NCBI GenBank assembly: GCA_905181635.1
Contig: CAJIYM010000004.1
Span: forward strand, 266,264-330,263
DNA from: an uncultured Flavobacteriales bacterium
Lineage (GTDB): Bacteria; Bacteroidota; Bacteroidia; Flavobacteriales; BACL11
Direction: 5' to 3'
Length of the DNA: 64,000 nt
The position numbers and the translations under genes are program-made. Shown here piece by piece: positions 34,375 through 48,846 of the stretch (its first letter is position 1; each line of letters starts with the position of its first letter). The notes under the pieces were generated by a model. It did not search any database. It saw only the letters and a list, made by a program, of their open reading frames with translations, and had not been told where the DNA came from.

Positions 34375-34926
34375 ATGAAAAAAATTATTAATTATTTTTT
34401 ACAAGGATTATTATATACAGTCCCTATAACAGTAACAGGGGCTTTTGTAGTATGGACTTTTAATAAAATAGATACAATCATACCAGGTTTATTTCCAGGA
34501 TTAGGCCTCGTCATTGTTATTGTTCTAATCACAATAATTGGAATTATTGGGTCGGCAGCAATTGCAAGTCCAATAAACTCCTTTTTCCAAAACCTACTAA
34601 AAAGAGCGCCATTACTTCAAACAATTTACTCCTCAGTAAAAGACTTGATGAGCACCTTTGTGGGAAATAAGAAAGGATTTGACCAGCCAGTACTGATAAA
34701 ACTTTATGAGAACTCATCTATTGAGAGAATTGGTTTTATTACAAATGAAAATTTAAACTCATTAGGAATTAAAGGTGAGAAAATTTTAGTGTATCTTCCT
34801 CACTCTTATGCTTTTTCTGGGCAACTTTTTGTAGTAGAAAAATCTTATATTACACCAATTGATAAGCCCTCATCTGAAATTATGAAATTAATCGTTTCGG
34901 GTGGCGTTACTAAAATTGAAAATTAA
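34375..34926 (+). CDS. DUF502 family integral membrane protein
   Basis: A 183-residue protein with two TM helices (about 9-28 and 39-63; LLYTVPITVTGAFVVWTF and GLVIVIVLITIIGIIGSA) and a soluble C-terminal domain with the family-typical PLLQTIYSSVKDLMSTFVG segment (about 81-100) and LVYLPHSYAFSGQLFVV. The DUF502 family has no settled function. It ends 31 bases before the PNGase F-related gene and could be co-transcribed with it. Confidence 0.85.
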   Translation: MKKIINYFLQGLLYTVPITVTGAFVVWTFNKIDTIIPGLFPGLGLVIVIVLITIIGIIGSAAIASPINSFFQNLLKRAPLLQTIYSSVKDLMSTFVGNKKGFDQPVLIKLYENSSIERIGFITNENLNSLGIKGEKILVYLPHSYAFSGQLFVVEKSYITPIDKPSSEIMKLIVSGGVTKIEN

Positions 34927-34957
34927 ACCTAACTTTGTAAATCAAATACTTCAGATT

Positions 34958-37174
34958 ATGAAAACAAAATTACTATCTTTATTTTCCATACTTTTTTGTA
35001 TAACATTAATTGCAGGAGACACAACAACTGTTCGCATCCACGACCATACCGACATGACTTGGTACGGAAATTATGATGCCTGGGGAGAACTTCCTGATGC
35101 AACAAAAGACTACCAAAAAGTATATTTAAACTATACTATGGGTTGCGCTACTGGTGGTTGTTCTGATTGGGATTATACTTCTCAAATTTTTGTTAGACAC
35201 AGAACAGGTGAAATTGATTCTTCTCTACAAACAGCACCTTTGTTTACTGTAAATGGAAATACAATAGACTCTATTCATTACAGTGCTGATTCAACATATT
35301 TTCATTTCTGGGACACCACAAGTAATACTGTAGATTCAACACTACACACACATTATGAAATAATAGAGTTTAATGACCCAAACAATCCAACAATTTCTAC
35401 GGACACAATAAATGGTTGGGTAGCTAATTACTATAATATGGATTTTGATAGTTTAGGAAATATCATTGATTCTAATTTTATATCTGCTAACACATCACTC
35501 TACCTTACCAACTATACTTGGTATACTGTCTATGATGTAATTGAAAATTATGAGTTGGCACGGGTAATCACACCTTACGGAAGTGGTTTAGCAAACAATT
35601 GGGAGTTTACAACAGTCTTTGATATTACCGATTTTATTCAAATTCTTAGAGATTCTGTTGAAATTAGATGTCATTATAGCGGTTGGTCATCAGGCTTTAG
35701 TGCTACGCTTGACTTTGAGTTTATTGAAGGAACCCCTGCCAGGAATGTAGTAAAAGTTGAAAACATTTATAGTGGCGGGTATAACTATACTTCTTCAAGT
35801 GACTTTGAAGCTAATAAATTAATGCCTCAAACAAAATTTATTGAATCAAATAGCTCTCAGGCAATGGTAAAAATGACAACAACAGGACATGGATTTGATA
35901 ATAATGCTTCTGCTGCCGAGTTTAAACCTATTGATTATTTTATAAACATTGATGGAACTCTTACTCATACTCAATACAATTGGGATTCGGATTGTGGAGA
36001 AAATCCAATTTACCCTCAAGGAGGAACTTGGATTTATGATAGAGCAAATTGGTGTCCAGGAAAAAGAGCTCAAGCTTTTAATCATGAAATAACACCACAT
36101 ATTACAGCGGGAGATTCTATTGAGTTAAACATCGACTTTCAATCTTATTCATGGGGTGGCACTCAAACGCCTTCATATATAGTTGAATGTCAGTTATTTC
36201 AATATGAAGATGCTAATTTTTCAAATTCAGCTGAAATTGTAGATATTATAAAACCCTCATTAAAAGATGAGTATAGCCGTAAAAATCCAATTTGTGGAAA
36301 ACCTTTAATTACAATCAGAAATTACGGAAGCAGTCCATTAACTACTTTAGACATTGAATACAAAGTAGTTGGAGGCAATTCTCATACTTATAACTGGGTA
36401 GGAAACCTAGCATTTTTGGAAACTGAAGATGTAGAGCTTCCAAACCTAACTAGCTGGCAAGGAAGCGAAAATACATTTGAAGTAATACTTTCCAGCCCCA
36501 ATGGACAAGTTGATGACTATTTAGAAAATAACACTTTGAAAAGTGAATTTGAAAATGTACCAGAATATCCAGAAAGTTTTGCACTTTGGATAGGAACAAA
36601 TAGTGGTGTGATAAACACCTTCACGCAAGAATCAGAAACGACATGGGATTTTTACAATGAAAATGGTAATGTTGAATTCACAAGTGGGAGTCTATACGGG
36701 AATATTCAATATCGAGATACTTTAACTTTTACCTCAGGCTGCTATACATTTGTGGTGAATGATACTGATGAGGATGGATTAGACTTTTGGGCAAATAATG
36801 ACGGGGGAGGTATGGTTCGTTTTCGAGAAATTGGAGCTTCATGGCTTAAATCTTTTAATGCTGATTTTGGAACGAATATTATTCACCAATTTACCATAGG
36901 ATCTACAGAAACAATAATATCAGTTGGACAAGAAAATAATTGGGAAATATATCCAAACCCAACAAAAAACACCTTAACAATTGAAGGCCTCTCTGATGAA
37001 AAAACAAAACTGACACTTCAAGATAATCTTGGAAAAATAATTTTGGAAAGGATAATAACAAAATCAGGGTTCAATTCTGAAACTATAAACTTAGAGCAAT
37101 TTGAAAATGGAATTTATTTCATTAAAATATCTAACTTAAAAGAAGAAATAACTAAAAAAGTAGTAAAAATATAA
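34958..37174 (+). CDS. PNGase F-related secreted protein with T9SS sorting domain
   Basis: A 738-residue protein with a signal peptide (1-19). The N-terminal region (about 21-270) resembles peptide-N-glycosidase F: GCATGGCSDWDYTSQIF (63-79) parallels the EWDRYANV segment of PNGase F that carries catalytic Asp60, here Asp72. Later come a CARDB-like region (about 435-540) and a C-terminal type A sorting domain (about 660-738, IYPNPTKNTLTIEG). PNGase F removes N-glycans from glycoproteins; activity here is inferred. An upstream ATG inside the DUF502 gene is rejected. The stop touches the ispG ATG. Confidence 0.8.
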   Translation: MKTKLLSLFSILFCITLIAGDTTTVRIHDHTDMTWYGNYDAWGELPDATKDYQKVYLNYTMGCATGGCSDWDYTSQIFVRHRTGEIDSSLQTAPLFTVNGNTIDSIHYSADSTYFHFWDTTSNTVDSTLHTHYEIIEFNDPNNPTISTDTINGWVANYYNMDFDSLGNIIDSNFISANTSLYLTNYTWYTVYDVIENYELARVITPYGSGLANNWEFTTVFDITDFIQILRDSVEIRCHYSGWSSGFSATLDFEFIEGTPARNVVKVENIYSGGYNYTSSSDFEANKLMPQTKFIESNSSQAMVKMTTTGHGFDNNASAAEFKPIDYFINIDGTLTHTQYNWDSDCGENPIYPQGGTWIYDRANWCPGKRAQAFNHEITPHITAGDSIELNIDFQSYSWGGTQTPSYIVECQLFQYEDANFSNSAEIVDIIKPSLKDEYSRKNPICGKPLITIRNYGSSPLTTLDIEYKVVGGNSHTYNWVGNLAFLETEDVELPNLTSWQGSENTFEVILSSPNGQVDDYLENNTLKSEFENVPEYPESFALWIGTNSGVINTFTQESETTWDFYNENGNVEFTSGSLYGNIQYRDTLTFTSGCYTFVVNDTDEDGLDFWANNDGGGMVRFREIGASWLKSFNADFGTNIIHQFTIGSTETIISVGQENNWEIYPNPTKNTLTIEGLSDEKTKLTLQDNLGKIILERIITKSGFNSETINLEQFENGIYFIKISNLKEEITKKVVKI

Positions 37175-39213: not shown

Positions 39214-39894
39214 ATGATCAACATAACTAATCTTCATAAATCCTATCAAATGGGAGAAAATTCCTTGCATGTTTTAAAAGGAATTGACCTAAAAATTAAT
39301 GAAGGTGAATTAGTTGCTATTATGGGGTCCTCTGGATCTGGAAAGTCTACACTTTTAAATATTATTGGAATGTTAGATAACTATGATTCAGGATCATACG
39401 ATTTAGACGGTATTCCTATAAAAGATCTTAACGAAACAAAGGCTGCCAAATACCGAAATAAATTTCTGGGATTTGTTTTTCAATCTTTTAATTTAATAAA
39501 CTATAAAACTGCTATTGAAAATGTTGCCCTACCTCTTTATTATCAAGGAATAGGGAGTAAAGAACGTCAAGAAATTGCACATGAGTATCTAAAAAAAGTA
39601 GGGTTAGCTAAATGGGCAGAACACCTACCTAGTGAATTATCTGGAGGCCAAAAACAAAGAGTTGCTATTGCTCGAGCATTAGCATCACAACCAAAAGTAC
39701 TGCTTGCAGATGAACCAACTGGAGCATTAGATTCACAAACTTCTGAAGAAGTAATGAGTCTGATAAAAAAAATAAATGATGAAGGAAAAACAATATTAGT
39801 TGTTACACATGAACATGAAATAGCTAATATGTGCAACAGGATAATTACATTAAAAGATGGAGTAATCATTACAGATATTAATACACAAGAATGA
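39214..39894 (+). CDS. ABC transporter ATP-binding protein (MacB/LolD type)
   Basis: A 226-residue ATPase with Walker A GSSGSGKST (about 39-47), the Q-loop FVFQSFNL, signature LSGGQKQR, Walker B VLLADEPTGALD and the H-loop VVTHEHE. It belongs to the MacB/LolD/FtsE group that drives FtsX-like permeases. It starts an operon with two such permeases, an adaptor and a TolC-like channel. Its last 4 bases overlap the first permease (ATGA). Confidence 0.95.
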   Translation: MINITNLHKSYQMGENSLHVLKGIDLKINEGELVAIMGSSGSGKSTLLNIIGMLDNYDSGSYDLDGIPIKDLNETKAAKYRNKFLGFVFQSFNLINYKTAIENVALPLYYQGIGSKERQEIAHEYLKKVGLAKWAEHLPSELSGGQKQRVAIARALASQPKVLLADEPTGALDSQTSEEVMSLIKKINDEGKTILVVTHEHEIANMCNRIITLKDGVIITDINTQE

Positions 39895-41126
39895 TATTTA
39901 GTAAAGATAGTTGGAGAGAAATTTTTGATACAATTAAAAAAAATAAACTCAGAACATTTCTTTCTGGCTTTACTGTTGCTATGGGGATTTTTATTTTCAT
40001 AATACTATTTGGGTTTGGTAATGGTCTGCAAAATAGTTTTGCAAAATATTTTACTGATGACAAGGTCAATACTATAAGAATATACCCAAGTTCAACTTCT
40101 TTACCATATAAAGGCTACACCGCAAATAGAACAATAGAATTTACTAATCAGGATCTTGTTGAAATAAAAGAACATTTTAAAGCTCAAGTCAAAGATATAG
40201 TTGTTAGGAATACAAGATACTTTCAAATTAAATATAAAGAAAAATCAAATAATTACCAAGTTAGGGCTGTTTCACCTGGACATAAAGAGGCTGAGATGAC
40301 TATAATTATGCATGGGAGATATCTTAATGAAGGTGATATTACCAATCGCAAAAAATATGCTGTAATTGGAAGATTGATTGCTCAAGATTTATTTAAGGGA
40401 AAAAATCCTATTGGTCAATATATTTTTGGCAGTAATCATAGCTGGAGAGTAGTAGGTGTATTTCAAGATGAAGGGGGAGATAGAGAAGAAAGAACTCTGT
40501 ATGTGCCATACACTGCAATGCAAGAAATAGAAAAAAATAATGACAAAATTGAACAGATTATTGTTGTATATAATCCAGAAATGGATTACGCAGCATCAGT
40601 TCAATTAGAAAAAAAACTAGAAGATTTCATAAAAAAGAAAAAATTTATTTCCCCTGAAGATAATAGAGGTGTTTATATTAGCAATACTGGGGAGCAACTT
40701 GAAAATTCAAAAAATTTCGATTGGCTACTACAAATTGTTGTTTCATTTATTGGCATAGGAACTCTTATAGCTGGTATAATAGGAATTAGTAATATAATGG
40801 TATTTGTTGTTAAAGAAAGAACCAAAGAAATAGGGATACGAAAGGCAATTGGGGCTACGCCTAAAAGCATTATATCAATGATTTTACATGAATCAATATT
40901 TATCACAACAATTTCTGGATATACAGGACTTATCTTTGCTATGATTGTACTAAAATTAATAGGAAATAATTTGGAAGAAAAATATTTTATCTCCAATCCA
41001 TATATAGACACAGGAGATGCAATATGGGCAACTGTAATATTAATATTTTTTGGAGCCCTAGCTGGCTATCTACCCGCAAGAAAAGCAGCTAAGATTAAAC
41101 CTATAATTGCTTTAAGAGATAAATAG
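39891..41126 (+). CDS. MacB-type ABC permease, subunit 1
   Basis: A 411-residue permease with TM1 at about 23-43 (FTVAMGIFIFIILFGFGNGL), a periplasmic domain (about 45-275) and three TM helices at the C-terminus (about 285-400) containing the FtsX-core motif VKERTKEIGIRKAIGATPKSI. MacB-type pumps expel macrolides, toxins or lipopeptides by a mechanotransmission stroke. It overlaps the ATPase gene by 4 bases and directly abuts the next permease gene. Unlike E. coli MacB, the ATPase is a separate protein. Confidence 0.92.
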   Translation: MIFSKDSWREIFDTIKKNKLRTFLSGFTVAMGIFIFIILFGFGNGLQNSFAKYFTDDKVNTIRIYPSSTSLPYKGYTANRTIEFTNQDLVEIKEHFKAQVKDIVVRNTRYFQIKYKEKSNNYQVRAVSPGHKEAEMTIIMHGRYLNEGDITNRKKYAVIGRLIAQDLFKGKNPIGQYIFGSNHSWRVVGVFQDEGGDREERTLYVPYTAMQEIEKNNDKIEQIIVVYNPEMDYAASVQLEKKLEDFIKKKKFISPEDNRGVYISNTGEQLENSKNFDWLLQIVVSFIGIGTLIAGIIGISNIMVFVVKERTKEIGIRKAIGATPKSIISMILHESIFITTISGYTGLIFAMIVLKLIGNNLEEKYFISNPYIDTGDAIWATVILIFFGALAGYLPARKAAKIKPIIALRDK

Positions 41127-42395
41127 ATGAATTCATTATTTGATAAAGACACTTGGCAAGAAATTTTTGGCTCAATAAGTCAAAATAAAATAAGAACTGT
41201 AATAACTATTATTGGAGTTCTATGGGGAATATTTTTATATATTGTACTTTCTGGACTAGCTAAAGGCGTTGATAATGGTTTCGAAAAACAGTTTGAAAGA
41301 ATTTCTTCTAATAGCTTGTTTATTTGGTCACAGAGCACAAGCATTCCCTATGCCGGATTTAAAACTTCTAGAAATTGGGATTTAAAATTAAGTGATGTAG
41401 AAGCACTAAAAAATAATATTCCTGAAATACAATATATTGCTCCTAGAATTCAAAGAGGAAATTTCGGCTCATCTGGGGCTACTGTTGTAAAAGGAACACG
41501 TTCAGGAACATTTAATATTTATGGTGACTTCCCTATTTTAACAACAATATCAACAAAAGATATTTATGAAGGGGGGAGGTTTATTAATGAACTAGACATT
41601 AAGGAAAGCAGAAAAGTATGTGTAATAGGAGAAAGAACCCAAAAAGAATTATTTAAGGATAATATAAATCCAATTGGAAATTTTATTAAAATAAATAATA
41701 TTTACTTTAAAGTTATTGGAATCCATAAATATAGAGACGAAGGAGGGGGTAGTTTTGATGATGATGGAGATATTCATGTTCCATTCTCAACATTTAAGAG
41801 AATCTATAATACTGGAGATTATGTAGGATTTTTACTAATTGCTGGATTTGATGATGTTGACATTATAGCTGTAGAGAAAAAAATAAGAACACAATTAAAG
41901 AAAATCCATAAAATTCATCCTGACGACAAACAAGCTGTAGGGGGTTTTAATCTTGGAGCCCTATTCACAAGAATTACTAGTTTTGCAAAAGGAATGTCAT
42001 TTCTATCATTAATTATAGGAATTGCAACTATTCTAGCAGGAGTTATTGGAATAGGAAATATATTATTAATTTCTGTTAAAGAAAGAACAAAAGAAATTGG
42101 AGTAAGGAGAGCTATTGGCGCTAGCCCAAATCATATAAGAAAACAGATTATTTTAGAATCTGTTTTTTTAACTACCATTGCAGGTGTAATAGGAATAATC
42201 CTTGGGGCATTTGTATTATATATAATTAATATAGCAACTGAAGGCTCAGAAATACCATTTACAAATGCAACAGTTCCAATTAGCTTTATATTAGGCGCCC
42301 TATTTTTAATGGTAGGGTTAGGCACTTTAATAGGATTTATTCCTGCAGAAAAAGCAATAAGCATTAAACCAATAGAAGCATTAAGAGAAGAATAA
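41127..42395 (+). CDS. MacB-type ABC permease, subunit 2
   Basis: A 422-residue permease with the same plan as its neighbour: TM1 at about 24-44, a periplasmic domain, and C-terminal TM helices with VKERTKEIGVRRAIGASPNHI. The two are clearly paralogous yet divergent in the periplasmic part, so the transporter is probably a heterodimer with one ATPase pair. The ATG follows the preceding stop without a gap. Confidence 0.92.
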   Translation: MNSLFDKDTWQEIFGSISQNKIRTVITIIGVLWGIFLYIVLSGLAKGVDNGFEKQFERISSNSLFIWSQSTSIPYAGFKTSRNWDLKLSDVEALKNNIPEIQYIAPRIQRGNFGSSGATVVKGTRSGTFNIYGDFPILTTISTKDIYEGGRFINELDIKESRKVCVIGERTQKELFKDNINPIGNFIKINNIYFKVIGIHKYRDEGGGSFDDDGDIHVPFSTFKRIYNTGDYVGFLLIAGFDDVDIIAVEKKIRTQLKKIHKIHPDDKQAVGGFNLGALFTRITSFAKGMSFLSLIIGIATILAGVIGIGNILLISVKERTKEIGVRRAIGASPNHIRKQIILESVFLTTIAGVIGIILGAFVLYIINIATEGSEIPFTNATVPISFILGALFLMVGLGTLIGFIPAEKAISIKPIEALREE

Positions 42396-42407
42396 AAAAC
42401 AAAAATT

Positions 42408-43535
42408 ATGAAAAATTACAAGAAAATTGCACTAATATTACTAATCATTGGGATAGTATTTGCTACTTCATTCTTTATAACATCAAATAATAAAGCATTA
42501 ATTCCTTTCGAAACAACTAAAATGATCAAAGCTACAATTGAAAATAAAATAGTTGCAACTGGAAAGGTAGTGCCTGAAGATGAGGTAGAAATAAAACCTC
42601 AAATTGCTGGAATTATTGACAAGATCCTAGTAAAGGAAGGAGATAAGGTTATAGCTGGAGACTTACTAGTAAAAATAAAAGTTGTGCCAAATGAACAAAC
42701 TCTTAATAGCGCTGAGGGAAGAGTAAAGAGTTCTAGAATTATTTTAACTAATTCAGAAATAGAATTTAAAAGAAATAAATCTTTATTCTTAAAAGAGATT
42801 ATTTCAGAGCAGGAGTATAATAATATTGAACTTCAATATAATCAATCACTTCAAAACTTTAAGAATGCTGAAAGTGATCTTCAAATTATAAAATTAGGAT
42901 CTTCTGATGGATCAAGCGTTACAAATACAAATGTTAGAGCTACAATCACAGGAACAATATTAGAAATACCAGTTAAGAAAGGTGATCAGGTCATACAAGC
43001 TAATACATTTAATCAAGGAACAACTATTGCAACAATTGCAGATTTAAATATCATGATATTTGAAGGGAAGGTAGATGAAGGAGAGGTTAGTAAACTGAAA
43101 CAAGAAATGGATATGATAATTAACCTTGCGGCTATTGAAGAAAAAAAATATCCAGCAAAATTAAAATTTATTGCACCAAAGGGAATTGAAGAATCTGGTG
43201 CCGTACAATTTAAAATAGAGGCTGATGTATACTTAGATGATGAGTATTTTGTTAGAGCCGGATATAGTGCAAATGCCTCGATAATAACTGCTCAAAGAAA
43301 AGAAGTAGATGCCTTAAATGAGGCGGTAATACAATATGATCTGGAAACCAAAAAACCTTATGTAGAAATAGAAATTGGCAACCAAGAATTTGAAAGAAGA
43401 GAAATTGTTTTGGGATTAGCAGATGGAATTAATGTAGAAATAATATCAGGACTAAAAAAAGATGAGAAAGTCAAGATATGGAGTATTACGCAACCTAATA
43501 AAAAAGGTGATATAAGTGTTACCGTAACAAATTAA
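42408..43535 (+). CDS. Periplasmic adaptor (HlyD/MacA-like membrane fusion protein)
   Basis: A 375-residue adaptor. An N-terminal TM anchor (about 6-25) is followed by a split lipoyl domain (IEIKPQIAGIIDKILVKEGDKV-type at about 60-90, completing near 180-200), an alpha-hairpin (about 95-165) and beta-barrel and membrane-proximal domains. It bridges the MacB-like permeases and the TolC-like channel downstream. The hairpin is short compared with MacA, and no extra domains are visible. Confidence 0.9.
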   Translation: MKNYKKIALILLIIGIVFATSFFITSNNKALIPFETTKMIKATIENKIVATGKVVPEDEVEIKPQIAGIIDKILVKEGDKVIAGDLLVKIKVVPNEQTLNSAEGRVKSSRIILTNSEIEFKRNKSLFLKEIISEQEYNNIELQYNQSLQNFKNAESDLQIIKLGSSDGSSVTNTNVRATITGTILEIPVKKGDQVIQANTFNQGTTIATIADLNIMIFEGKVDEGEVSKLKQEMDMIINLAAIEEKKYPAKLKFIAPKGIEESGAVQFKIEADVYLDDEYFVRAGYSANASIITAQRKEVDALNEAVIQYDLETKKPYVEIEIGNQEFERREIVLGLADGINVEIISGLKKDEKVKIWSITQPNKKGDISVTVTN

Positions 43536-43538
43536 GAA

Positions 43539-44861
43539 ATGAAAACGAAAATGAAATCAATAATTTTTACTGTAATAATCATTTTTTATTCAGTTGAATT
43601 AAGTGCACAAAAAAAATGGACACTAAATGAATGTATTGAAAGAGCAATCAACAAAAATATATCTATTAAGCAATCTAAGGCAGATTTAAAAAGCGCCAGC
43701 CTAACCAAAACAACCGCTATTGCTAATTTTTTACCAAATATAAATTTAGGATCTTCTCATTCTTGGAATATTGGGCTTAACCAAAATATTACAACTGGGC
43801 TGTTGGAAAATATGACAACTACCTCAGCTTCATTGAATGCTAATCTGGGGATTGATTTATTCAATGGTCTACAGAATATTCAACAATTATACAGAGCTAA
43901 CCTGAGTATTTTAGCGAGCCAATATCAATTGGCAGATATGACAGAAAATATTTCCTTACTAGTAGCAAATTCTTATTTACAAATTTTGTTTAATAGAGAA
44001 AGTTTGGGAGTACAGTATTCTCAATTAACAATTGCAAATGAAGAACTAATCATTGCACAAGAACGCCTCAAAACTGGAATTATTCCAAAAGGAGAAGTTC
44101 TAGAAATTGAAGCAAATGTAGCTACTATTGAACAAAATGTAGTAGTGGCCGAAAATAACTATCAACTTTCAAAAATTTCTCTTGCACAATTACTGCTTAT
44201 TTCTGAAATTGATAATTTTGAAATAGCACAGGAAACAGTAACTAGTCCTGAATCATCAATACTAAATACAAATGTAAATAACATATATTTAACTGCTGTA
44301 GCTAAACGTAATGATGTTAAATTAGCAGAAACAAATTTGAAAATTGCCAAGAAAGACTTAGCTATTTCTAAAGGAAGTATCTTACCAAAAATAACTGGTT
44401 ACTATTCTTATAGCTCCAGAATATTATTTGATAATCCAAATTCTATTTCAAATCAATTGGATGCTAATGGAGGAGAAAACTTTGGGGTACAACTTTCAAT
44501 TCCTATTTTTAATGGAATGGGAAACAATACAAATATCAAAAGAAATAAAATTAATATACAGAAAACTAACTATGCTTTAGAACAGGTAAAATTGGATTTA
44601 AGAAACACCATTAACCAAGCCTATAATGATGCAAAAGGTTCTTTAAAAGCTTACCAAGCAGCTGAAAAAACAGTAGCAGCTCGCAAATTAGCCTACGAAT
44701 ATGCCAAAGAAAGATTTGATAATGGAGGAATGAATACCTTTAATTTTTTACAAGCTGGACAAAGGAATGAGGCAGCTCAATCAGAAATGATAAAAACAAA
44801 ATACAATTATATTTTCAAATTAAAAGTTTTAGAATTTTACTTTGGAGAAGCTAGTTTGTGA
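43539..44861 (+). CDS. TolC-family outer-membrane channel
   Basis: A 440-residue channel protein with a signal peptide (about 1-24, ending ELSAQ), then WTLNECIERAINKNISIKQSKADL, the usual start of the TolC fold, and two OEP repeats (about 25-225 and 240-440) with long heptad-rich helices. It completes a full tripartite exporter with the four genes upstream. The stop lies two bases from the convergent purT stop, and no terminator hairpin is seen between them. Confidence 0.92.
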   Translation: MKTKMKSIIFTVIIIFYSVELSAQKKWTLNECIERAINKNISIKQSKADLKSASLTKTTAIANFLPNINLGSSHSWNIGLNQNITTGLLENMTTTSASLNANLGIDLFNGLQNIQQLYRANLSILASQYQLADMTENISLLVANSYLQILFNRESLGVQYSQLTIANEELIIAQERLKTGIIPKGEVLEIEANVATIEQNVVVAENNYQLSKISLAQLLLISEIDNFEIAQETVTSPESSILNTNVNNIYLTAVAKRNDVKLAETNLKIAKKDLAISKGSILPKITGYYSYSSRILFDNPNSISNQLDANGGENFGVQLSIPIFNGMGNNTNIKRNKINIQKTNYALEQVKLDLRNTINQAYNDAKGSLKAYQAAEKTVAARKLAYEYAKERFDNGGMNTFNFLQAGQRNEAAQSEMIKTKYNYIFKLKVLEFYFGEASL

Positions 44862-46129: not shown

Positions 46130-46474
46130 ATGAAAATTATAAAATTACTAACTTTAGCTTGCCTTACCATATTTTGCTTAACAACATTTGCTCAAAAACC
46201 CAAATGGGAGAAAGCAAACTTTCAAGTTTCGGGGAATTGTGACATGTGTAAAACAAAAATTGAGAAAGCAGCAACTGGAATTGAAGGTGTAAAAACAGCA
46301 AGATGGAATGTTGTAAACGGAAAGATGAAAGTGAAATTTAAGCCTGCAATTACAAATACTGAAAAGATACAACAGATTATAGCTAGTATAGGCTATGACA
46401 CTGAAAAAAACAAAGCAACTGATGAGGCGTATAACAACCTACACCACTGTTGCAAATATGAAAGAGAGCAATAA
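46130..46474 (+). CDS. Secreted heavy-metal-associated (HMA) domain protein
   Basis: A 114-residue protein with a signal peptide (1-21, ending TTFAQ) and one HMA domain (about 28-95). The metal motif is CDMC (Cys37, Cys40) in SGNCDMCKTKIEKA, a variant of GMxCxxC. A second possible ligand group, HHCC, lies at 105-108. This points to a periplasmic copper or other soft-metal carrier. The ATG at 46130 opens directly onto the signal peptide; a TTG 9 bases upstream is possible. The next two genes follow closely on the same strand. Confidence 0.9.
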   Translation: MKIIKLLTLACLTIFCLTTFAQKPKWEKANFQVSGNCDMCKTKIEKAATGIEGVKTARWNVVNGKMKVKFKPAITNTEKIQQIIASIGYDTEKNKATDEAYNNLHHCCKYEREQ

Positions 46475-46484
46475 AATTAAACTT

Positions 46485-47246
46485 ATGAAAAAAACCCTAA
46501 TGATTATTTTAGCAATTCTAACTACTTTAGGATTTGGCTACGCACAAACTACTGCTACTGATTTTACTACTGATGATTGTAATGGAATATCACACAGCTT
46601 ATTTGATGAGCTTGACAATGGAAATGTAATTGTAATTGCTTGGGTAATGCCTTGTGGCCCTTGTGCAACCTATACAATACCCGCTTATTCCGCAGTACAA
46701 TCTTTTGGCACTTCAAATCCAGGACAAGTTAGTTTTTACTTAGTAGATGATTTTGCCAATACTAACTGTGCTACATTAACAGGCTGGGGTAATTCAAACA
46801 ATATGCCTTTAAACACTACTTTTTCTTCAAGTGATATTAGCATGAGTGACTATGGGACAAATGGGATGCCAAAAGTTGTTGTTCTAGGTGGGTCAAACCA
46901 TACAATTTATTTAAATAAGAATGACAATAAAATCAACTTTGCAGGAGTTCAAGGAGCTATTAATGATGCATTAAATGCACCTTTAGGTATTGAACAAGCA
47001 GAAAGTTCTCACTTTCAACTTTTAACATTCCCTAACCCAGTAAACAATATTCTTAATGTTATAAATACTAAAGTTCATTCAGAAAAAATTACTTATAGAA
47101 TCATAGATGCATTAGGTAAAATAGTTATACAAGACAAAAAATTAACAACATCTGTTGATGTTAGTTCATTAAATAATGGAAATTATTTTCTAAAAGTATC
47201 TTCCGAGACAAGTTCAGAGAGTATTCCATTTGTAGTTAATCATTAG
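46485..47246 (+). CDS. Secreted thioredoxin-like protein with T9SS sorting domain
   Basis: A 253-residue protein with a signal peptide (1-20, ending FGYAQ). A thioredoxin-like domain follows (about 22-175) with the redox motif CGPC (Cys57, Cys60) in VIAWVMPCGPCATYTIP and a cis-Pro-like GMPKVVVLG segment. The C-terminus (about 178-253, FPNPVNNILNV) is a type A T9SS sorting domain, so the protein is sent across the outer membrane. It starts 10 bases after the HMA gene. A role in thiol or metal handling at the surface is inferred from the neighbours. Confidence 0.85.
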   Translation: MKKTLMIILAILTTLGFGYAQTTATDFTTDDCNGISHSLFDELDNGNVIVIAWVMPCGPCATYTIPAYSAVQSFGTSNPGQVSFYLVDDFANTNCATLTGWGNSNNMPLNTTFSSSDISMSDYGTNGMPKVVVLGGSNHTIYLNKNDNKINFAGVQGAINDALNAPLGIEQAESSHFQLLTFPNPVNNILNVINTKVHSEKITYRIIDALGKIVIQDKKLTTSVDVSSLNNGNYFLKVSSETSSESIPFVVNH

Positions 47247-47250
47247 GCGT

Positions 47251-48255
47251 ATGCGTATAGCGTTAATGAGCTTCTTAATTCTTGTAGCTAATATTAGTAT
47301 TTACGCACAAGGCTGTTGCTCTGGAGGCGCCGGCAGTCCTATTGCTGGAGGTGCAGCATCTGGAGTTTTGCAGGAATATCAAATGGAAATTTCGGTAAAT
47401 CATCAGTTCAATTCATCTAACAAATTTTATACCGGAAGCAAATCTACTGAACCATTATTTAAAAATTTGACAAGTAATTATATGTTTTTTAGGACTGATT
47501 ATGGGGTAAGCAAAAAACTCACTTTATCACTAGCTACAGGTTACTATTTAAACAAGTCAAAAGAAGCAGATTACGTAATAAATAATAGGACTTCTTCAGG
47601 ATTTAGTGATTTAATTATTTTTCCTAGATATAGTGTTTATAATAAGAACAATAATTTTAAAAGAACAGAGATTGCATTAGGCTTAGGAATAAAAATGCCA
47701 ATAGGAACGCATATAGACTCTACATTAACAGGCCCTAATGAATGGGACTTTTATAAAACTAATCCTCCATTAGTACAAACTACAAATGGATCAAATGATT
47801 TTATGTTCTATTCATTCATTTTTAGAGAGTATCAAAAAAGAAAATTAAGACTATTTATTAGTGCTCTACATGTTAAGAAGAACTTTAATTCTCTAGGACT
47901 TAAGTTTGGGGACTATTCAAGTTTGGGATTATTTATTTCTAAAACATTCTTTAGAAAATGGGGTGTAACTACACAACTAAAACTAGAGCATATTGGAAAA
48001 ATTCAATCTGCAAAAGAAATTAATCCTGAGTCTTTGTACGACATAGTTCCTATATCAACAGGCAGCAATAAAGCATTTTTTACCCCTCAGATAAGTTATT
48101 CCCAAAATGGGTTAACTTTTTTTGTAACTTCTGAAATACCTATATATCAATATTTACATGGGACGCAAATTGGATCACAAAGCCAGTTTACTGCAGGTGT
48201 GAATTATCGTTTTCTTACCAAAGAATGTGAACCTGAATTTGAGTTAGAGAAATAG
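47251..48255 (+). CDS. Outer-membrane barrel protein with N-terminal CCSGG motif
   Basis: A 334-residue protein with a signal peptide (1-20, ending SIYAQ), then immediately GCCSGGAGSPIAGG (21-34) with adjacent Cys22 and Cys23. The rest is strand-rich with alternating aromatics and ends in a barrel-like final strand (QFTAGVNYRFL) followed by an acidic tail. It fits a 12-strand-like transporter barrel. The CC motif would sit at the periplasmic N-terminus of the mature protein, a plausible metal site. It lies 4 bases after the thioredoxin-like gene, so the three genes form one unit. The substrate is unknown. Confidence 0.75.
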   Translation: MRIALMSFLILVANISIYAQGCCSGGAGSPIAGGAASGVLQEYQMEISVNHQFNSSNKFYTGSKSTEPLFKNLTSNYMFFRTDYGVSKKLTLSLATGYYLNKSKEADYVINNRTSSGFSDLIIFPRYSVYNKNNNFKRTEIALGLGIKMPIGTHIDSTLTGPNEWDFYKTNPPLVQTTNGSNDFMFYSFIFREYQKRKLRLFISALHVKKNFNSLGLKFGDYSSLGLFISKTFFRKWGVTTQLKLEHIGKIQSAKEINPESLYDIVPISTGSNKAFFTPQISYSQNGLTFFVTSEIPIYQYLHGTQIGSQSQFTAGVNYRFLTKECEPEFELEK

Positions 48256-48258
48256 ACT

Positions 48259-48846
48259 TTATAAGTCCCTAATAAATTGCTTAGCAATATATTTTCCTAG
48301 AATATCATATTCAATATTCACTACCGAACCCTCTTTAAGCTCATGAAAATTAGTATGCTCATGCGTGTAAGGAATAATAGCTACTGAAAAAGAAGTGTCT
48401 TTGGAATTAACAACTGTTAAACTTATGCCATTTACACAAACAGAACCTTTCTCCACCGTCATATTGTCGGATTCCTTGTGCTTAAAAGTATATACATAAG
48501 AACCATTTTCTTTTTTAACCTCTACGCACTTTGCCGTTTGATCAACATGACCTTGTACCATGTGCCCATCAAGCCTATCTCCTACTTTAAGGCACCTTTC
48601 TATATTTACTTTACTCCCAACTACTAATAAACCAATATTGGATTTATCCAAAGTTTCTTTAATAGCAGTAACAATATATTTATCTCCATTAATTTTAACT
48701 ACCGTTAAGCAAACTCCATTATGCGCTACACTTTGGTCAATTTTTAATTCTGAAGTAATAGTCGACTTTAAGGAAATATGCACATTACTTCCTTCACTTT
48801 CAACTTTAACAACCTCAGCTATTTGCTCAATTATTCCTGTAAACAT
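48259..48846 (-). CDS. ribE: Riboflavin synthase (alpha subunit)
   Basis: A 195-residue enzyme built of two lumazine-binding repeats (1-about 95 and 96-195). It starts with MFTGIIEQIAEV and has the second-repeat segment GHMVQGHVD and VNGISLTVV. It dismutates two 6,7-dimethyl-8-ribityllumazine molecules to riboflavin. It follows mqnC by 1 base on the minus strand and converges with the barrel gene. Confidence 0.96.
   Translation of the reverse strand: MFTGIIEQIAEVVKVESEGSNVHISLKSTITSELKIDQSVAHNGVCLTVVKINGDKYIVTAIKETLDKSNIGLLVVGSKVNIERCLKVGDRLDGHMVQGHVDQTAKCVEVKKENGSYVYTFKHKESDNMTVEKGSVCVNGISLTVVNSKDTSFSVAIIPYTHEHTNFHELKEGSVVNIEYDILGKYIAKQFIRDL

Follow-up and report, generated by a model that had tools for sequence, protein, structure and literature searches.

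A three-gene module in a marine Bacteroidota genome that probably handles a soft metal, most likely copper, at the outer membrane

Why would a marine Bacteroidota genome keep genes for a periplasmic HMA-domain protein (HMA), a T9SS-exported thioredoxin-like protein (TRX) and an outer-membrane beta-barrel (BAR) side by side? In the 64,000-nucleotide stretch of DNA that we analysed (the window), the ORF list gives HMA at 46130..46474 (114 aa), TRX at 46485..47246 (253 aa) and BAR at 47251..48255 (334 aa), all on the + strand and separated by 10 nt (HMA/TRX) and 4 nt (TRX/BAR). These gaps agree with the initial annotation, which had put the three genes within 10 bases of each other, and every motif to which it had pointed (CDMC, HHCC, CGPC and GCCSGG) is found in the ORFs. 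The flanking genes are purT upstream and riboflavin synthase (ribE) downstream; because both are on the opposite strand, the trio stands alone in the window. A MacB/HlyD/TolC-type operon (39214-44861) was considered as part of the system and rejected, because the opposite-strand purT intervenes and, in relatives, the operon keeps company with purT and not with the trio. At 34901-37174 the window encodes a large T9SS-tailed protein that has the appearance of a PNGase F-type glycosidase.

HMA carries a signal peptide and is a periplasmic protein whose HMA domain falls within PF00403 (6.4e-10; 39.7 bits against a Pfam gathering cut-off of 24.8). Its CDMC motif, a CxxC, lies at 46238-46249 and the CC of its C-terminal HHCC at 46448-46453; in an alignment, the cysteines C37 and C40 and the tail cysteines C107 and C108 were invariant in 17 of 17 relatives. 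HMA scored below every NCBIfam equivalog cut-off, the best CopZ equivalog reaching 39 bits against 91-95 and the MerP equivalog 15 bits against 92.55, and its matches to the MerP/MerTP models were weak. When its profile was compared with the PDB, the best matches were HMA domains of copper ATPases and CopZ, with MerP also found. HMA thus has the HMA domain and CxxC in common with MerP/CopZ metallochaperones (PF00403), but differs from them in having a signal peptide, NCxMCK in place of GMTCxxC and an additional invariant C-terminal CC.

The second protein, TRX, ends in a T9SS type A sorting tail (47028..47216, + strand, residues 182-244), for which both tail profiles exceed their cut-offs: PF18962 at 3.8e-13 (50 bits against 27, Pfam) and TIGR04183 Por_Secre_tail at 7.7e-11 (41.8 bits against 23, NCBIfam). 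Together with a signal peptide judged by eye, this makes TRX a T9SS type A cargo and would place it at the cell surface. Its thioredoxin domain matched no Pfam family. The predicted model (pLDDT 79) retrieved ResA/TlpA-type structures with Foldseek (ResA TMt ~0.75, E ~1e-6), with BsSco further down the list, so that TRX has a thioredoxin/TlpA-like fold as judged from this model and from the active-site-type motif MPCGPC, whose CxxC lies at 46653-46664. Seven residues were invariant in 19 of 19 sequences (C32, C57, C60, C95, M55, M120 and M128); M55 precedes the CxxC and M128 precedes the conserved proline, and these two methionines could complete a Cu(I) site. We also considered TRX as a substrate of MbnH through its near-invariant W53 and dropped this idea, as the distant MbnH-linked TRX of L143 is without a Trp at that position.

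BAR matched no Pfam family; PF13557 was not hit even at E 1, although distant BAR relatives do match it, and the BAR profile found no PDB sequence. The predicted model (pLDDT 75) is a 12-stranded barrel whose best fold match is the COG4313 channel 4rl8 (Z 26.3, rmsd 2.2, 254 residues), followed by FapF, with PcoB (7pge) much weaker (Z 12.5). By the fold of this model, BAR is a COG4313-type outer-membrane channel. Its N-terminus reads ...IYAQ-GCCSGGAGSPIAGG, the mature protein starting GCCSGG, and the vicinal pair C22-C23 (47314..47319, + strand) is present in 19 of 19 trio barrels. In the wider barrel family across the phylum, a CC or CxC pair opens the mature protein in every copy with an intact N-terminus (for example QCCSAGNP, TCSCAGAP and DACGCAAG). 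In 4rl8 the N-terminal 14 residues occupy the lumen at the periplasmic side (PMC4493636), and by this analogy the CC segment of BAR would be expected at the pore's periplasmic opening or just within it; residues 9-37 of the AlphaFold model have pLDDT <50, so the position of the CC is not confidently placed. BAR therefore resembles the COG4313/Phenol_MetA_deg channels (4rl8, PF13557; PMC4493636) in its 12 strands and in the segment ahead of strand 1, and differs from them in its N-terminal Cys pair, its metal-gene neighbours and the absence of a PF13557 match of its own. PcoB (PMC9210255) is likewise a small copper-tied outer-membrane barrel, but COG4313 fits BAR better, and BAR is without a PDB sequence match and has other partners and ligands; the fold ranking does not support membership of BAR in the PcoB family.

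Elsewhere in the phylum, the barrels keep varied company. At 12 loci (L072, L074-L080, L082, L104, L105 and L108) CC/CxC barrels adjoin DUF3179 proteins, on whose function a literature search returned nothing. PKD/Ig-like lipoproteins lie directly 5' of the barrel at six loci (L070, L073, L081, L084, L087 and L088), some of them with a CC close to the C-terminus. In L090 (G013 C1, about 492 kb) the barrel is broken into three frames, by decay or sequencing error.

Whether the three genes form a unit was asked of the relatives. A close-barrel search of 119 relatives returned 23 genomes, the window's own counted, plus a few distant barrels. TRX lies immediately 5' of the barrel in 22 of 22 relatives where the contig continues, and HMA lies 5' of TRX in 19 clear cases and as a truncated remnant in G072, with no counterexample; G006, G012 and G015 are uninformative, their contigs ending too early. 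The flanks, named by eye except for the genes that were profile-scanned, are of several unrelated kinds: purT/ribE (the window's genus and others), TonB receptor plus a methylmalonyl-CoA-mutase-like subunit (G001, G007 and G029), MbnP-MbnH (G083), metF/ABC-type genes (G024) and era/der-type GTPases (L036). A single 436-aa ORF encodes both barrel and HMA in Crocinitomix sp. GLR79 (L036), with TRX in front, and in a genome from a different class of the phylum (G268, L070) a second barrel bears a C-terminal HMA with CxxC and LPKCC; these fusions place HMA at the C-terminal, periplasmic end of the barrel. TRX and barrel are also present in family f37 (L069). Because the flanks differ and BAR::HMA fusions exist, the trio is not mere inherited synteny, and we rejected an explanation by purT-trio-ribE synteny only. 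HMA-TRX-BAR is a real unit, and its order and its cysteines are conserved across genera and families well beyond chance. The initial annotation had made its proposal depend on the genes keeping together across Bacteroidota, and the conserved trio and its fusions bear this out. The remnant in G072 (L014/L091) is without the N-terminal half of HMA, CxxC included, in frame, and is possibly decayed or frameshifted.

TRX and BAR are further tied to each other by their recent history. Against G010 DNA, the flanks of the trio in the window are mostly 83-97% identical and ~46700-48200, covering mature TRX and barrel, only 55-68%; against G004 DNA, identity is ~99-100% over 46550-48300, ~88% in the left flank and 83-99% in the right. 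From these opposite patterns we infer that TRX and barrel were swapped jointly by recombination, which fits two surface-exposed partners. Protein distances, compared descriptively over related genomes and without a significance test, correlate between the TRX domain and the barrel (r 0.73) and between the T9SS tail and the barrel (0.74), and less so when TRX or BAR is compared with HMA (0.23-0.36; 0.23 for HMA and the barrel). The identity breakpoints of 46550-48300 against L034 and L031 are sharp and show allelic exchange of TRX and barrel among close relatives. Such exchange is expected of surface proteins under diversifying selection, and raises the question of a phage receptor.

Many relatives have a Cys-rich small protein and a TonB receptor ahead of the trio, or ahead of HMA-TRX where the barrel is absent. 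The small protein gives a weak HYC_CC_PP match, below that model's cut-off (family f1); a literature search returned no paper naming HYC_CC_PP and nothing on its function. The associated receptor is present in 49 of 60 relatives, in many families of the order, and its plug contains AACCNLSESF or a close variant, with C138-C139 invariant in the 29 of 29 sequences covering the site; the OprC-type CxxxM motif is absent from 30 associated receptors, which are therefore not of the OprC type (CxxxM, HxM). TRX was found in 30 genomes, and in the 8 of these without a barrel it comes either after an HMA or after the TonB receptor, which it follows directly or with HMA intervening. The window's own genome holds such a locus on contig C3 (L121, about 103-106 kb), where a Cys-rich HYC_CC_PP-like protein, a TonB receptor with plug CC and an HMA of a different type from that of the trio (SAECVANCCK) make up a second soft-metal locus. 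In one genome of family f3 of the same order (L108), HYC_CC_PP (78.7 bits, over the cut-off), receptor, HMA, barrel and DUF3179 follow one another, and in L131 (G056, family f6) the TonB receptor carries an HMA domain fused to its N-terminus. A CC pair is thus common to the Cys-rich protein, the plug of the receptor, the tail of HMA and the barrel. Most likely, the trio is an offshoot of this phylum-wide locus of Cys-rich HYC_CC_PP-like protein, TonB receptor with plug CC and HMA. The finding of the initial annotation is sound and its interpretation holds in part: the main guess is well supported by comparison, but the trio is only a fragment of a wider system, whose other members (Cys-rich protein, TonB receptor and HMA) lay outside what it could see.

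Which metal might the module handle? In G083 (L092), genes for MbnP, an MbnH-like di-haem protein, HMA, TRX and barrel are consecutive on one strand. MbnP-MbnH-Cys-barrel triads occur in several families (L107, L151, L152, L156, L157 and L159). The barrels of these triads have a CxxCGC-type N-terminus and often lie 3' of a small protein with CxNxxxPxxxCxGKC. MbnP is present in 77 of 119 genomes and next to the full trio only in G083; because it is so common, its presence alone means little and the gene order is the evidence. TRX itself adjoins MbnH twice (L143 and L146) and in L144 stands between HYC_CC_PP and a T9SS-tailed multicopper oxidase. Beyond the order, only five of the 391 other genomes have TRX; in four of these it adjoins MbnH (G489 and G134, the latter TRX a weak match), HYC_CC_PP (G489 and G300) or barrel (G276); in G300 a multicopper oxidase is one gene away. 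From the MbnP/MbnH and multicopper oxidase neighbours, copper is the best-supported metal, and mercury or another soft metal is possible. The initial annotation had suggested copper or a similar metal, and the operon links to MbnP/MbnH and multicopper oxidase strengthen this suggestion, with the metal itself read from neighbouring genes. Its further proposal of soft ligands at the surface, in the outer membrane and in the periplasm is supported by the invariant cysteines in all three proteins, the location of TRX being a prediction.

Known copper systems share parts of this arrangement. Copper-related operons of Proteobacteria combine MbnPH genes with a TonB receptor and a Cys-containing leader (CruR); one of these operons is copper-repressed and a proposed copper importer (PMC9426467). 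The CruR-BfrG(CrtA)-Bp2921 operon of Bordetella (PMC9426467, PMC12914433) resembles the larger locus in its short Cys-containing leader, TonB receptor and third envelope protein, in the MbnPH of related operons and in its proposed copper import. By comparison, the leader here is HYC_CC_PP-like, a periplasmic HMA stands in place of the PepSY_TM protein, the plug of the receptor carries a CC where CrtA is without any conserved Cys, and the locus also has TRX and a separate barrel. The trio in the window has no adjoining leader ORF or TonB receptor, and so is not itself a CruR-TBDT operon; leader and receptor accompany HMA on contig C3 and lie beside the trio in relatives. The MbnP/MbnH pair (PMC3621798; PF20243, TIGR04039) shares an operon with HMA-TRX-BAR in G083 and with the Cys-barrel in several families, but is usually absent from the trio, and the trio loci read yielded no recognisable methanobactin genes.

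Taken together, HMA-TRX-BAR is probably an outer-membrane module for handling a soft metal, most likely copper, and probably for its uptake. The comparison shows gene order, fusions, co-exchange, conserved ligands, predicted fold and neighbours; in the proposed mechanism, T9SS would export TRX to the surface, where its reduced CxxC and flanking Met would capture the metal; alternatively, its redox activity may keep the metal as Cu(I) and the CC sites as thiols. Surface TRX and BAR together would form an entry port, with BAR a small COG4313-like channel whose N-terminal CC would sit in or at the periplasmic pore mouth, and HMA would accept the metal from BAR at the periplasmic side through its CxxC and tail CC and hand it onward. 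We favour uptake and not export, given that a TonB receptor has an HMA of this kind as its partner and that copper represses the closest operon studied so far, which is taken to be an importer (PMC9426467, PMC12914433). Counting against copper uptake, barrel relatives occur in other soft-metal or thiol loci (L086 and L071) or beside DUF3179 (the 12 loci above), and COG4313 channels have been proposed for hydrophobic molecules (PMC4493636).

It is possible, if rather unlikely, that the module is instead a defence against copper, mercury or another thiophilic metal, with BAR releasing or trapping bound metal and HMA and TRX sequestering it. Consistent with this, barrel relatives lie in an ArsR-MerTP-GDCCVxC cluster (L086) and in an ArsR-redoxin-CDF locus (L071), and HMA weakly matches the MerP/MerTP models; however, no efflux ATPase, RND pump, MerA or metal regulator adjoins the trio in the trio loci read, and the partner is instead of an outer-membrane importer type, the TonB receptor. 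We consider it quite improbable that TRX and HMA serve surface T9SS cuproproteins such as MbnP and multicopper oxidase, supplying their copper or setting their disulfides, with BAR an accessory pore. TRX does adjoin MbnH or a T9SS-tailed multicopper oxidase, the MbnP of L092 has a T9SS tail match and the TRX model also resembles BsSco, but most trio loci, the window among them, are without an adjoining cuproenzyme gene, and the BAR::HMA fusion indicates a channel-chaperone pair. A third reading, very improbable, makes BAR a usual COG4313 channel that passes hydrophobic or small polar molecules, with a CC that is only a structural disulfide and with HMA and TRX as coregulated bystanders. In its favour is the best fold match, 4rl8, which is not regarded as a channel for hydrophilic molecules (PMC4493636); against it stand the Cys pair, which marks out this branch of barrels and persists as CC or CxC, the two BAR::HMA fusions and the recurring MbnPH neighbours.

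We therefore return to copper handling, probably uptake. A literature search found no description of a gene set of this composition and no named system, as the initial annotation, which recognised none, had also held. Most likely, the trio is a branch, not described before, of a pathway that handles copper across the phylum, probably by taking it up. More tentatively, copper in Bacteroidota may move inward across the outer membrane along a chain of vicinal-Cys sites, which would comprise the Cys-rich small protein, the plug CC of the TonB receptor or a CC-gated COG4313-like channel, the T9SS surface thioredoxin and the tail CC of HMA; CC barrel and TonB receptor would then be ports of entry that can replace each other and feed one chaperone. 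Bacteroidota are major marine and gut bacteria, and for the question of how they bring copper across the outer membrane, the CC sites that are conserved, the fusions of BAR with HMA and the link to MbnPH provide defined proteins and residues for testing.
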